Positions 3,385-7,170 of a DNA stretch of 60,693 nucleotides are shown in pieces (within the stretch, counting starts at the first letter, position 1; each line of letters opens with the position of its first letter). A program made the position numbers and the translations under genes. The stretch lies in assembly GCA_017545525.1 (NCBI GenBank), contig JAFWMT010000003.1:1-60693 (forward strand), given 5' to 3'. The notes under the pieces were generated by a model that had not been told where the DNA came from, did not search any database, and was given only the letters and a program-made list of their open reading frames with translations. Source of the DNA: Candidatus Saccharimonadota bacterium (GTDB lineage: Bacteria > Patescibacteriota > Saccharimonadia > Saccharimonadales > Saccharimonadaceae).

Positions 3385-4659
3385 TTATATATATTTGCTT
3401 AGTATTACGATATATTCATAATCTGGCATATTCACGGAATTAAGAGTTTGTCTTAATAGTTTAATTTTATCTTTTGAGCTTCGGTCTGATTTATATCTTT
3501 TTGATTGCAATAATTTCTTGATTTCTTTAGTTGAGTTTAAAATTTGTAAAGCTTGTTGTTTATTGATTGCGGAAATACATACACCGATTTTTGAAACATC
3601 TTCTTGGTTTAATTTTTGGTTTTTATTTTGGAGAAATTTTGCGACCATGTTTATAAATCGAATTTTATCTGAGTTTTTATCCATAATATCGCTATATTCT
3701 TTTTGAAGCTCTTCTCTGAAAGCTTTAGCCTCTTCTAATTCAAAAGAGTATAGTGAGCAAGCCAATGATGTTTCGTCATCGGATAAATATCCAATAGTCG
3801 TATCTCCAGCCCTATTCTTTTTACCTTTTTTATAAATATCGGAAAATCCAGAAAAGATTACAGCTAAATCGGTTAATCGTTCTTCGTCATTGGTATTTTT
3901 TTCTGGCATTTTTACTGAATGTAAAACTATATGGCAAAACTCGTGTGCAATAACACTAATAAAAGTGTCTGGGTTATCCTCTGAGCCAGGATAAATGGTA
4001 ATATTGCAGGGTCTATATTTAAAATGCGTGCTTCCAAAAACACCAACATCAGAAACATTTACTTCTGCTAATGTATGATGATTTAGATTTTTTTCATCCC
4101 TTTTTGTCGTAGTTTTTCTTATTACTGAAACATTTAGATTACCAAGCGACAAGTGTTCTGCTATAGCCATAATGGCACTTTTTGTTTTCTTCTCGTGAAG
4201 TAATTTTTTTATAGGTTCCGCATCGACTTGTTCGCTAATGCCTATACAATTAATTACTTTTTTAACTTCTGCGCTGATTTTCTGAGTATCAGTTTTAGGC
4301 ATTTGCTCGCTTGTTTTTTGGTTAGGGGGAGTGTTTGTCTTATTGGGGCGAGATGCGCTACTGGGGGTTTTTAATTGTTTTTTGTTAGTTTTATTGCTAG
4401 ATGAGCTTTTGGATTTAGAAAAGATGAGACTGCCTATAACTATAATAACGATAAAGCCAGCTATACCACTCCAATCAATTACCGTATTTTTTGTTGGTTT
4501 GACCTGACCATTTTTAACGGTGAAAGTGGTTTCTTCTTTGGTAAAAGAAATTGCCGAAACGGTTGTTGGAATAAAAACGAATGAGCCAAGCACGGTTATA
4601 AAAGCTACCAATAACTGAACAATAAAGTTTCGAATAGTAGGTGCATTATTATGGCTCAT
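3385..4659 (-). CDS. Membrane-anchored HExxH metalloprotease-like protein
   Basis: A 424-aa protein. Residues 12-36 form a hydrophobic segment ending PTTVSA, like a signal peptide or first anchor; residues about 65-80 form a second membrane segment; residues 81-125 are a Ser/Lys/Pro linker. The HEFCH motif at 239-243 fits a zincin zinc site, with the following EERLTD segment (about 258) a candidate for the third ligand. The family is not recognised. No good Shine-Dalgarno is close to the ATG (a GGAAGG lies about 13 nt away), and the start sits inside a structured leader described separately. A membrane protease in a mobile element might act in signalling, immunity or cell-surface processing; this is inference. 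Confidence 0.65.
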   Translation of the reverse strand: MSHNNAPTIRNFIVQLLVAFITVLGSFVFIPTTVSAISFTKEETTFTVKNGQVKPTKNTVIDWSGIAGFIVIIVIGSLIFSKSKSSSSNKTNKKQLKTPSSASRPNKTNTPPNQKTSEQMPKTDTQKISAEVKKVINCIGISEQVDAEPIKKLLHEKKTKSAIMAIAEHLSLGNLNVSVIRKTTTKRDEKNLNHHTLAEVNVSDVGVFGSTHFKYRPCNITIYPGSEDNPDTFISVIAHEFCHIVLHSVKMPEKNTNDEERLTDLAVIFSGFSDIYKKGKKNRAGDTTIGYLSDDETSLACSLYSFELEEAKAFREELQKEYSDIMDKNSDKIRFINMVAKFLQNKNQKLNQEDVSKIGVCISAINKQQALQILNSTKEIKKLLQSKRYKSDRSSKDKIKLLRQTLNSVNMPDYEYIVILSKYI

Positions 4660-4832
4660 TTAGACACTAATTCCTTCCTGCCTTAAAACGAAATAGGACA
4701 CCAATCACGGTGTCTAAATCGTTTTCCTGCGCCTAGTGGTTAACTAGTGCTTCGGATTGGTGTCCTAGCCTCGTAGTTAACCAATCTTGAGCCTTTTGCA
4801 GGCACTAAGCACAGGTTTAATTTGATTTAGAC
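4659..4832 (-). ncRNA. Structured 5' leader or non-coding RNA upstream of the protease gene
   Basis: A TGG-extended TATAAT at 4844-4839 (minus strand) predicts transcription from about 4832, leaving about 170 nt before the protease ATG. In that RNA 4815-4803 pairs with 4738-4726 over 13 bp, two of them G-U; read on the plus strand these two become A-C mismatches, so the minus strand is the structured one. Inside are a CCU/AGG hairpin, a 7-bp GAUUGGU/ACCAAUC helix (4786-4780 with 4761-4755) and a competing 8-10-bp helix (4783-4774 with 4746-4737). Next comes a hairpin of AAAACGA/UCGUUUU enclosing GACACC/GGUGUC (4725-4685). Segments 4765-4755 and 4706-4696 are perfectly complementary (11 bp). 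Segment 4719-4710 matches the start-codon region 4667-4658 (10 bp). Confidence 0.5.
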
Positions 4833-4838
4833 AATATA

Positions 4839-4844
4839 ATTATA
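4839..4844 (-). promoter_or_regulatory. Extended -10 box for the structured leader and protease operon
   Basis: TATAAT on the minus strand preceded by TATGG, an extended -10. No good -35 is seen at the usual distance. The plus-strand gene on the other side has its own TATAAT at 4901-4906. Confidence 0.5.
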
Positions 4845-4923
4845 CCATAAGCTAGTGAATGATGACTATAGGTAATAGAGAAGTTGTTTCTGCTATATGA
4901 TATAATTTAAAAAAGGAGAAAAA

Positions 4924-6405
4924 TTGCAAAACGAAATACCTAATGATAAATTGGAGCTCATTGTCAAAAATTTTTGTAAACTTGATAGTGAACAGGAACA
5001 CGTAGAGTTTAAAGAAAATATTAATAATGAGGAAATCATTGCAAAGACTATCGTTGCGATTATTAATTCTATGACAAGACAGAATATCCCTCGTGGATAT
5101 TTTGTTTGGGGGATAAATGACAAAACTCACGAAATAGTTGGGACAGATTTCAACCCGAGTAATAAAAAGATAGGAAATGAGGAATTAGAATTATGGTTGT
5201 CAAAATATATTCAGCCCACACCTTCCTTATGTTTTCGAAAACTAGACATTGATGGAAAGAAGGTAATAGTGCTAGTTATCCATAGCAACCCACTAGAACT
5301 AGCGAAATTTAAAAATGTGGCTTATATAAGAATAGGTGCTAATACAAGAAAATTGGATGAATTTCCCAATATCGAGAAAGAGGTTTGGAAAAATATCGTT
5401 GAACGTGATTATGAGTCAATAACAGCTAAAGCTTGTCTATCGAAAACAGAAGTTATATCTTTATTAGATTTCGATGCATTATATGAAATGCGAAAGAATA
5501 ATGCGCCAGTAGAACAAGATGCTTTATTTGATGAAGCCGTGAGGTGTGGTATGGTGAAAGACAATTATGATACTACTTTTGATATTACAAATTTCGGAGC
5601 TTTGTTATATGCAAAAGATATAAATGACTTTCCGTCTTTGAAGAGCAAAGCAATAAGAATTATCCATTATAAAGGTGAAACAAAGCTTGAAACAAAGAGT
5701 GAAGTCCGTAGTAAAAGTGGTTATATTGTTGAATTTAACGAAATGCAAAAATATGTAATGGAGAAGACTATAGATGGCGAATTTATTGATGATGACGGCA
5801 TAAGAAAAATTAAATATCTTTATCCGAGAATTACAATTAGGGAGCTTTTCGCTAATATAATAGCCCACCAAGATTTGACAATTAATACTATCCAGCCTAT
5901 GGTTGAAATATATTCAAATAGGATAGAATTTGTTAATCCTGGAGTTCCATTAATACCAAAGGATAGGTTTGTCGATTATCCTCCACAAACGAGAAACATA
6001 AAAATAGCAGAGGAATTATATAAGGTGGGTATATGTGAAAGGCGAGGCTCTGGTTGGGATAAGATTGCTACAGAAGCCAGTGAGCATGGATTTTCTGCAC
6101 CTTCACCAGAGATAACTAAGGATACTACTCGCATTATTTTGACTCAACATAAAACATTATTTGATATGACAAACGAAGAGCGTATGTGGTCAATATATAT
6201 TTATGCTTGTTTACTATGGGTAGAGAAGAAATATCTAACGAATGCTTTAACTAGGAAATTATTTAACATTCCAGAGGCAAATATGTCCACAGCATCGTCT
6301 TTACTTGGTCAAGCGGTGAAAAGTGGTTTAATTGTGATTTTCGATGAACAATCTGGAACTAGAAGTAGAAAATATCTACCAAAATATGCAAAACAAGAAG
6401 AATAA
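4924..6405 (+). CDS. AlbA_2/Schlafen-type ATP-binding regulator
   Basis: A 493-aa protein starting at TTG, with AAGGAG about 6 nt upstream and TATAAT at 4901-4906. The N-terminus carries the AlbA_2 (AAA_4, Schlafen-like) signature: a VEFKE segment near residues 27-31, then IVAIINSMTRQNIPRGYFVWGI and IRIGANTRK. The C-terminal half has the ATPase-like segment typical of these regulators (RELFANIIAHQDL, IEFVNPG, ICERRGSGWDKI, about residues 310-385) and a winged-helix-like end. The family is known from transcriptional regulators and mobile or defence islands. It is divergent from the protease operon, so control of that operon is a reasonable inference. Confidence 0.75.
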   Translation: MQNEIPNDKLELIVKNFCKLDSEQEHVEFKENINNEEIIAKTIVAIINSMTRQNIPRGYFVWGINDKTHEIVGTDFNPSNKKIGNEELELWLSKYIQPTPSLCFRKLDIDGKKVIVLVIHSNPLELAKFKNVAYIRIGANTRKLDEFPNIEKEVWKNIVERDYESITAKACLSKTEVISLLDFDALYEMRKNNAPVEQDALFDEAVRCGMVKDNYDTTFDITNFGALLYAKDINDFPSLKSKAIRIIHYKGETKLETKSEVRSKSGYIVEFNEMQKYVMEKTIDGEFIDDDGIRKIKYLYPRITIRELFANIIAHQDLTINTIQPMVEIYSNRIEFVNPGVPLIPKDRFVDYPPQTRNIKIAEELYKVGICERRGSGWDKIATEASEHGFSAPSPEITKDTTRIILTQHKTLFDMTNEERMWSIYIYACLLWVEKKYLTNALTRKLFNIPEANMSTASSLLGQAVKSGLIVIFDEQSGTRSRKYLPKYAKQEE

Positions 6406-6437
6406 TTACTTTATAGCAATAAGCGGTTAAAAGATAT

Positions 6438-6529
6438 AACAGGGGTGAGTTTGCTTCGTGGTTGCTTCATAAACATAAGTATTTTATAAAAAGAACAGGG
6501 GTGAGTTTGCTTCGTGGTTGCTTCATAAA
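6438..6529. repeat. Two identical 36-bp direct repeats, 20 bp apart
   Basis: Copies at 6438-6473 and 6494-6529 are identical over 36 bp (opening AACAGGGGTGAG, ending GCTTCATAAA) and separated by a 20-bp AT-rich spacer. Each copy has an internal GCTTC pair 11 bp apart. They lie between two convergent genes at the right edge of the AT-rich element-like segment. No inverted symmetry, open frame or cas gene is seen. An attachment-site or recombination duplication is possible. Confidence 0.8.
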
Positions 6530-6563
6530 GAGGTAATATAAAATAGTATGGTAAACGAAAGTA

Positions 6564-6986
6564 TTATTTGTCGAAACTCTTGAGAAAGAGAAGAGCCTTC
6601 TTTGCCATTTCAGGGTCTTTAGGGTTCATTCTAAAGAAGCCGTCCAATACATAGTGGCTCTCTAAAACCATCTTTTCGCTTTCGAATAGATTATCGTCAA
6701 ACCAGACAAAATCACTATCTAAATCAATTCCATCAGTTTTAAGGACTTCCCAATTTGTTGGCAAAAATGACTGATAAAGCTCATCTACTAGCTCTTTAGG
6801 GAAGGTGTCTGAGAGTGCAAAATTAGTATGGTTTTCGTTGCCTTTACAATGTGTAGTTAGCCAATAAAGTGAGCCAGTATAGTTATCTAGGCAATAGCGA
6901 AGAAGAGAAATAATATCTTCTTGTGGTGATGCCGTGCCTTTTAATACTCCATCAATATCAAAATATATTTTGTCTATCTTTTCCAT
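6564..6986 (-). CDS. Small HAD-superfamily-like phosphatase
   Basis: A 140-aa protein starting at the ATG at 6986, 4 nt after the TAG of the preceding 59-aa gene; a GTG 15 nt upstream is less likely because it lies inside that gene. The nucleophile motif DIDGVL (Asp10, Asp12) is present, a threonine pair (WLTTH) fits motif II, and VWFDDN fits the acidic motif IV. A separate large cap is absent, consistent with a short HAD or NIF-like member. Substrate unknown. Translational coupling with the upstream gene suggests the two work together. Confidence 0.65.
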   Translation of the reverse strand: MEKIDKIYFDIDGVLKGTASPQEDIISLLRYCLDNYTGSLYWLTTHCKGNENHTNFALSDTFPKELVDELYQSFLPTNWEVLKTDGIDLDSDFVWFDDNLFESEKMVLESHYVLDGFFRMNPKDPEMAKKALLFLKSFDK

Positions 6987-6990
6987 TACA

Positions 6991-7170
6991 CTAAATAGCA
7001 CCTCTTAATTTATCTGGAGACGGTCTTTTGCCATCTATAAAATCACCAACGGTAAAATCAGCTATCGGTTCTACCCATTTACCATCTATAAGTTCAGTAA
7101 AAGTCCCATTCTCATCTTTGATAATGCGACCATCTTCTAACTCTTGTATTATTGGTTTTCTGTCTTCCAT
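6991..7170 (-). CDS. 59-aa acidic small protein, coupled to the HAD gene
   Basis: A 59-codon frame with a strong ribosome binding site (AAGGAG, 6 nt before ATG) and a TAG stop 4 nt before the HAD-like start. The product is acidic with a short repeated layout (LEDGRIIKDENG, then LIDGKW), which looks like beta-hairpins rather than noise. No known family is recognised. Close coupling to the HAD gene is the only functional clue. Confidence 0.6.
   Translation of the reverse strand: MEDRKPIIQELEDGRIIKDENGTFTELIDGKWVEPIADFTVGDFIDGKRPSPDKLRGAI

Follow-up and report, generated by a model that had tools for sequence, protein, structure and literature searches.

A covarying leader RNA family of Saccharimonadaceae with a putative loop-to-tail pseudoknot and an attenuator-like layout

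The window analysed here is a stretch of 60,693 nucleotides from a Candidatus Saccharimonadota bacterium of the family Saccharimonadaceae (contig JAFWMT010000003.1, positions 1 to 60,693), the genome of which is 0.72 Mb in size (relatives, 0.5-1.3 Mb). On its minus strand, a structured leader precedes a gene whose product had been described as a membrane protease in the first-pass annotation, an earlier reading of this DNA made from the sequence alone (Table 1). The match of this window protein to the M78-like (HExxH) family is borderline, with a Pfam score of 21.8 bits lying below the cut-off of 22, but a relative with 45% identity to it follows a copy of the leader in a second species (G028). 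A divergent gene with Pfam matches to SLFN AlbA_2 and RecG-C-like domains (window 4924-6405) starts approximately 90 nt from the inferred start of the leader.

Table 1. Features of the leader and its downstream gene in the window.
Feature	Position	Strand	Basis or remark
-35-like hexamer TAGTCA, weak	4863-4868	-	18-nt spacer to TATAAT
-10 box TATAAT, preceded by TG	4839-4844	-	Fixed distance from motif in relatives
Inferred transcription start, G	4832	-	Family-invariant G, 6 nt after -10 box
Strand 0, RNA nucleotides 1-9; partner strand B (helix P0)	4824-4832	-	Complementarity and covariation
P1 5' strand, 13 bp with 4738-4726	4803-4815	-	Fold; compensatory changes in near relatives
P3, small 5'-side branch hairpin (GCCU...AGGC)	4791-4803	-	Fold; branch hairpin in 73/106 relatives
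P2 5' strand, partner 4746-4737	4774-4783	-	Complementarity
Strand A, in P2 apical loop; can pair with strand C	4755-4767	-	Complementarity and covariation
P2 3' strand	4737-4746	-	Complementarity
P1 3' strand	4726-4738	-	Fold
Strand B, partner of strand 0	4712-4720	-	Complementarity and covariation
B-C hairpin GACACC-GTGATT-GGTGTC	4697-4714	-	Terminator-like score; weak covariation
Strand C, partner A (13 bp) or partly B	4694-4706	-	Complementarity and covariation
U-rich tract TTTCGTTTT	4685-4693	-	6 T in 8; weaker than family norm
Candidate Shine-Dalgarno AGGAAGG	4673-4679	-	Sequence
Downstream gene, membrane-anchored M78/IrrE-like HExxH protein	3385-4659	-	Borderline Pfam match; relatives

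Folding of the minus strand from 4832 to 4655 gave -62.7 kcal/mol, compared to -39.1 +/- 4.1 kcal/mol for shuffled sequences (z = -5.7), with none of 200 shuffles being as good. The minimum free energy structure was found to include the 13-bp closing helix of the first-pass annotation (4815-4803 with 4738-4726, here P1), and the two non-Watson-Crick pairs of this helix, read directly from the sequence, are G-U on the minus strand. P2 consists of 10 perfect pairs, while the complementarity of strands A and C, earlier given as 11 pairs (4765-4755 with 4706-4696), extends to 13 perfect pairs at 4767-4755 with 4706-4694. The A-C and B-C pairings had both been seen in the first-pass annotation. Absent from it was a helix at the 5' terminus, formed by the complementarity of 4833-4824 to 4720-4711 (helix 0-B). 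The last 3 nt of strand B, together with 4711-4709, also serve as 5' arm in hairpin B-C.

Two further pairings of the first-pass annotation are present in the window and fared differently from P2 among relatives. A 7-bp helix (4786-4780 with 4761-4755) had been described as excluding P2; both exist and P2 was retained, while pairing of strand A with upstream sequence was rejected as a family feature (mean 5.9 against an expectation of 5.3, with two near relatives at 5 bp), this helix being private to the window. Pairing of strand B (4719-4710) with the start-codon region (4667-4658), which amounts to 10 perfect pairs in the window, was discarded, with a length of 8 bp being reached in just one of 100 relatives, namely the window itself.

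A DNA search of 150 relatives returned eight matches, all of the same genus, which have a common layout despite much differing sequence. Covariance models were built from nine sequences (R1) and from 61 sequences (R2). R1 identified the motif in 43 of 174 genomes of the genus. With R2, matches were obtained in 106 of 295 genomes sampled across the family, spread over 28 of 61 genera, in 55 of 295 sampled across the order and in 17 of 362 sampled across the phylum. Of the phylum matches, four fall outside the order; on inspection by eye three of these appear genuine, one of which may be on a misbinned contig. Because both models derive from this motif, the return of its core letters is in part built in, which is not the case for the covarying letters. 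Up to 10 copies of the leader were found per genome, with the window's own genome carrying one. No match to the covariance models of Rfam 15 was obtained at the leader in the window or in its relatives beyond sub-threshold chance matches, in agreement with the earlier statement that it belongs to no known class. On this comparison of sequences, the leader is one copy of a predicted RNA family without an entry in Rfam 15, rather than an isolated oddity. Six pattern-scan matches in named genomes of other phyla were dismissed as chance (model score of 17 bits or less), and neither of the two core patterns tried was found on phage contigs. The open-access literature yielded no description of this leader RNA.

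The anatomy of the family was compared on 107 copies less than 85% alike. In 91 of the 107 copies, exactly 5 nt separate a TATAAT-like -10 box from the motif; TG precedes the box in 78%, and the second motif position is an invariant G (105 of 105). Transcription is likely to start at this position (4832 in the window), as the -10 box lies at a fixed distance from it. Position 1 is the sole position of helix 0-B with frequent mismatches, which fits it being the untranscribed -1 nucleotide. P1 and P2 sit between strands 0 and B. Of 106 predicted folds, 73 have an extra branch hairpin, always on the 5' side, which gives rise to a three-way junction. Strand A lies in the P2 apical loop, which is approximately 24-25 nt in length (median 25). 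Strand C follows within a few nucleotides of strand B and is itself followed by a U-rich tract, which has at least five U in eight nucleotides in 97% of relatives. A same-strand ORF starts at most 260 nt downstream in 100 of the 107 copies; some of these ORFs start just 14-40 nt from the leader, leaving no room for a separate promoter. As in an attenuator, a promoter lies directly upstream and a same-strand gene directly downstream. The lengths of the arms do not co-vary as a folded-back geometry would have them (Spearman 0.00 and 0.02), although their mean lengths are similar. In four copies before or near methyltransferase genes (L012, L015, L017, L021), a second hairpin of the GACACC...GGTGTC type, followed by a T run, was observed shortly after strand C.

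Strand A and an A-rich loop account for the few conserved unpaired nucleotides. This bears on the reading of the leader as a riboswitch proper, in which a small molecule at the junction or the A-rich loop would bias A-C against B-C. Such a role would suit an element that acts in cis, exists in multiple copies before varied genes and often has a three-way junction; however, conserved unpaired nucleotides outside strand A are few, the targets have no common pathway, the window's genome has a single copy, and the reading is judged improbable. Pseudoknotted riboswitches such as those for preQ1 and fluoride have a loop that pairs with the 3' tail beside the expression platform. The leader resembles them in this respect, while differing in that helix A-C is much longer (10-18 bp), its sequence varies freely, conserved unpaired nucleotides are few and Rfam gives no match. 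The leader family showed neither a conserved ligand pocket nor an upstream ORF or regulator, and inspection of relatives by eye revealed no conserved start codon or frame for a leader peptide.

Pairing was examined on 58 distinct rows of concatenated anchored segments covering helices 0-B and A-C. In these, 97.5% of cells were found to be paired, compared to 75.2 +/- 0.7% upon shuffling of partners and 33-46% in slid controls, and two-sided changes were identified in 16 of the 22 pairs (278 such cells, compared to 71 when shuffled). In these rows, helix 0-B was anchored on the model match and not on complementarity, although R1 and R2 nonetheless include seven of its pairs, while the register of A-C was set for each sequence by its best complementary run, which somewhat favours A-C pairing. 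By a separate count, helix 0-B, the best-supported helix of the family, has 9.77 of 10 pairs (7.12 +/- 0.10 when shuffled) and helix A-C has 11.61 of 12 (9.66 +/- 0.09 when shuffled). These shuffles ignore relatedness; strands were also swapped between copies nearly identical in one of the two helices. Among copies with near-identical A and C and a different strand 0, the copy's own 0-B pairing was 9.76 of 10 compared to 7.21 for swapped strands, and among those with near-identical 0 and B and a different A-C, the values for A-C were 11.61 of 12 and 9.49. Strong covariation among homologues, one of the two points on which the first-pass annotation had staked its reading, was therefore observed.

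Wobble cells in helix A-C are G-U in 145 cases and opposed A and C nucleotides in 8, with corresponding numbers of 33 and 6 in helix 0-B. As G-U is by far the more frequent, the functional molecule is likely to be RNA of the minus strand. The earlier claim of a real minus-strand RNA is borne out by this bias, by the fixed-distance promoter and by the compensatory changes. The same three features fit RNA better than a feature acting at the DNA level, such as a recombination or attachment site or an operator read via inverted repeats; serine-recombinase-like genes at related loci and the palindromic nature of GACACC-GGTGTC are in keeping with a DNA-level role, which is nevertheless regarded as highly improbable.

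Covariation of hairpin B-C is weak, with 94.0% of cells paired compared to 91.5% when shuffled and nine two-sided cells, though clear compensation was seen by eye in copies such as L030, L060, L062 and L130. The competing B-C state would appear to rest mainly on a conserved CACC/GGTG core. Mutually exclusive helices with comparative support, strong for A-C and weak for B-C, are thus a feature of the family. B-C overlaps helix 0-B by no more than one to three pairs; the two can therefore largely coexist, which does not fit a simple two-state switch. In folding without pseudoknots, the 0-B state is at most 1 kcal/mol above the optimum in 91% of copies, and the optimum in the window has B-C in place of 0-B.

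Taken as a whole, the leader, a member of a new RNA family, probably attenuates transcription in cis. By sequence comparison, the first approximately 9 nt of the RNA pair with strand B and close an arm consisting of P1, often P3, and then P2, the apical loop of which presents strand A. Strand C can pair with A in a loop-to-tail pseudoknot of about 14 bp or, via the short core, with B, and would act as the decision strand. As the polymerase reaches the U tract, C would be captured by one or the other, which would set the share of transcripts ending before the gene, the target in the window being that for the M78-like protein. Of the attenuator or riboswitch logic put forward previously, the attenuator-like part is kept, while the step of start-codon sequestering is dropped and a small-molecule aptamer is considered improbable. 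Control in the window could be translational, as its U tract (TTTCGTTTT) is interrupted.

The mean energy of the A-C duplex is -24.0 kcal/mol, compared to -8.5 kcal/mol for the B-C hairpin. In 96 of 106 copies the A-C stem reaches the first TTT or runs into it, with B-C usually falling 1-4 nt short, and in a GGTGCC subgroup of approximately 16 copies B-C is reduced to about 4 bp and has a 3-nt spacer while the U tract is kept. Of the two, A-C appears somewhat the likelier terminating stem, with B-C as its competitor, because it is far stronger and flush with the U tract and because B-C comes down to about four pairs in the GGTGCC subgroup. Under the opposite polarity, the local B-C hairpin would be an intrinsic terminator, and 0-B and A-C together an antiterminator locking both of its arms. 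B-C would form fast, being local, its hairpin is below -6 kcal/mol in 81% of copies and, with the U tract, it scores as a terminator in the window. However, the retention of the U tract in the GGTGCC subgroup is not in line with this polarity, and pairing of a 3' arm beside a U tract should favour release of the RNA in intrinsic termination, so that A-C, which pairs the 3' arm at this position, should itself favour release. The opposite polarity is for these reasons considered unlikely, although it is the chief alternative.

With A-C as the favoured releasing stem, the leader may represent a new form of intrinsic termination, in which the stem is a pseudoknot whose 5' arm lies in an apical loop closed by the first nucleotides of the transcript, controlling surface, membrane and DNA-methylase genes across the lineage; this broader reading is offered tentatively. 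To our knowledge, an intrinsic terminator with a pseudoknot stem is not established, and whether a loop-to-tail pseudoknot acts as, or against, an intrinsic terminator is a question that this family makes testable. Known attenuators (trp/his type, T-box and riboswitch platforms) share with the leader a leader RNA with exclusive pairings, a terminator-like hairpin, a U tract and a downstream gene. In contrast to these, neither a leader peptide nor tRNA contacts nor a known aptamer was seen here, pairing reaches the first transcribed nucleotide, and it is an apical loop that offers the 3' arm its other partner.

Pairing of the 5' end from its first nucleotide (P0), along with the loop-to-tail pseudoknot, would also be expected of a stable 5' element or small RNA, with both ends sequestered so as to shield the message or a released RNA of approximately 150 nt from nucleases and no switching taking place. 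This leaves the conserved U tract and the retained B-C core unexplained and is thought quite improbable. In topology only (a three-way junction, and a hairpin loop that pairs immediately 3' of the closing helix), the leader resembles class 1 exonuclease-resistant viral RNAs, but it is bacterial, has longer helices and lies at the 5' end of mRNAs. The type III toxin-antitoxin system ToxIN has a similar order of promoter, pseudoknotted RNA, terminator and gene, while the leader is a single unit and not a set of repeats, and its downstream genes are diverse and do not encode a ToxN-like nuclease.

Among 89 downstream proteins, 13 match Fib_succ_major, with others matching type II DNA methyltransferases (EcoRI-type, N6/N4, C5 and Eco57I) and DUF4352, T4SS pilin, TM2, VWA and OmpA proteins; many more are membrane or secreted proteins by eye. 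Up to 10 copies may occur in a genome, each with its own matched strands; their position ahead of restriction-modification enzymes and surface proteins suggests that host-facing and defence genes are controlled in common. The open-access literature has hardly any descriptions of structured RNA classes for tiny-genome bacteria such as these, and none were found there for Saccharibacteria.

The M78 gene was identified in 4 of 147 genomes of the genus, and a protein search for it in named genomes gave no match. The M78-like genes (window 3385-4659; L178, 3581-4672; L179, 3890-4975) are found in operons with other genes, partners named by eye being an EcoRI-type methyltransferase and a DUF262-like gene (G150) and an HSP90-type ATPase-like gene (G226). 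In G150 the leader precedes a methyltransferase gene, with the M78-like gene two genes further on. The M78-like gene may possibly be a defence component.

In the window, G088 and G028, the leader lies in related neighbourhoods with different cargo. Across three species (window 4600-7001, L180 and L181), the leader and its differing cargo were observed near the same conserved genes. The SLFN AlbA_2/RecG-C-like gene has no match at the G088 locus, where a large serine-recombinase-like gene (by eye) comes after the cargo. The mobile element proposed in the first-pass annotation is plausible, given the M78 gene's presence in so few genomes of the genus and the serine-recombinase-like genes at related loci (by eye). 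Many copies (L044, L047, L051, L055, L058, L063 and others) lie near a contig end that truncates the downstream gene, as might be expected if these genes were repeated or hypervariable. Approximately 1.1 kb downstream of one leader copy, a LOOT RNA (RF03000, 74 bits) was identified on the plus strand (L100, 2747-2864).
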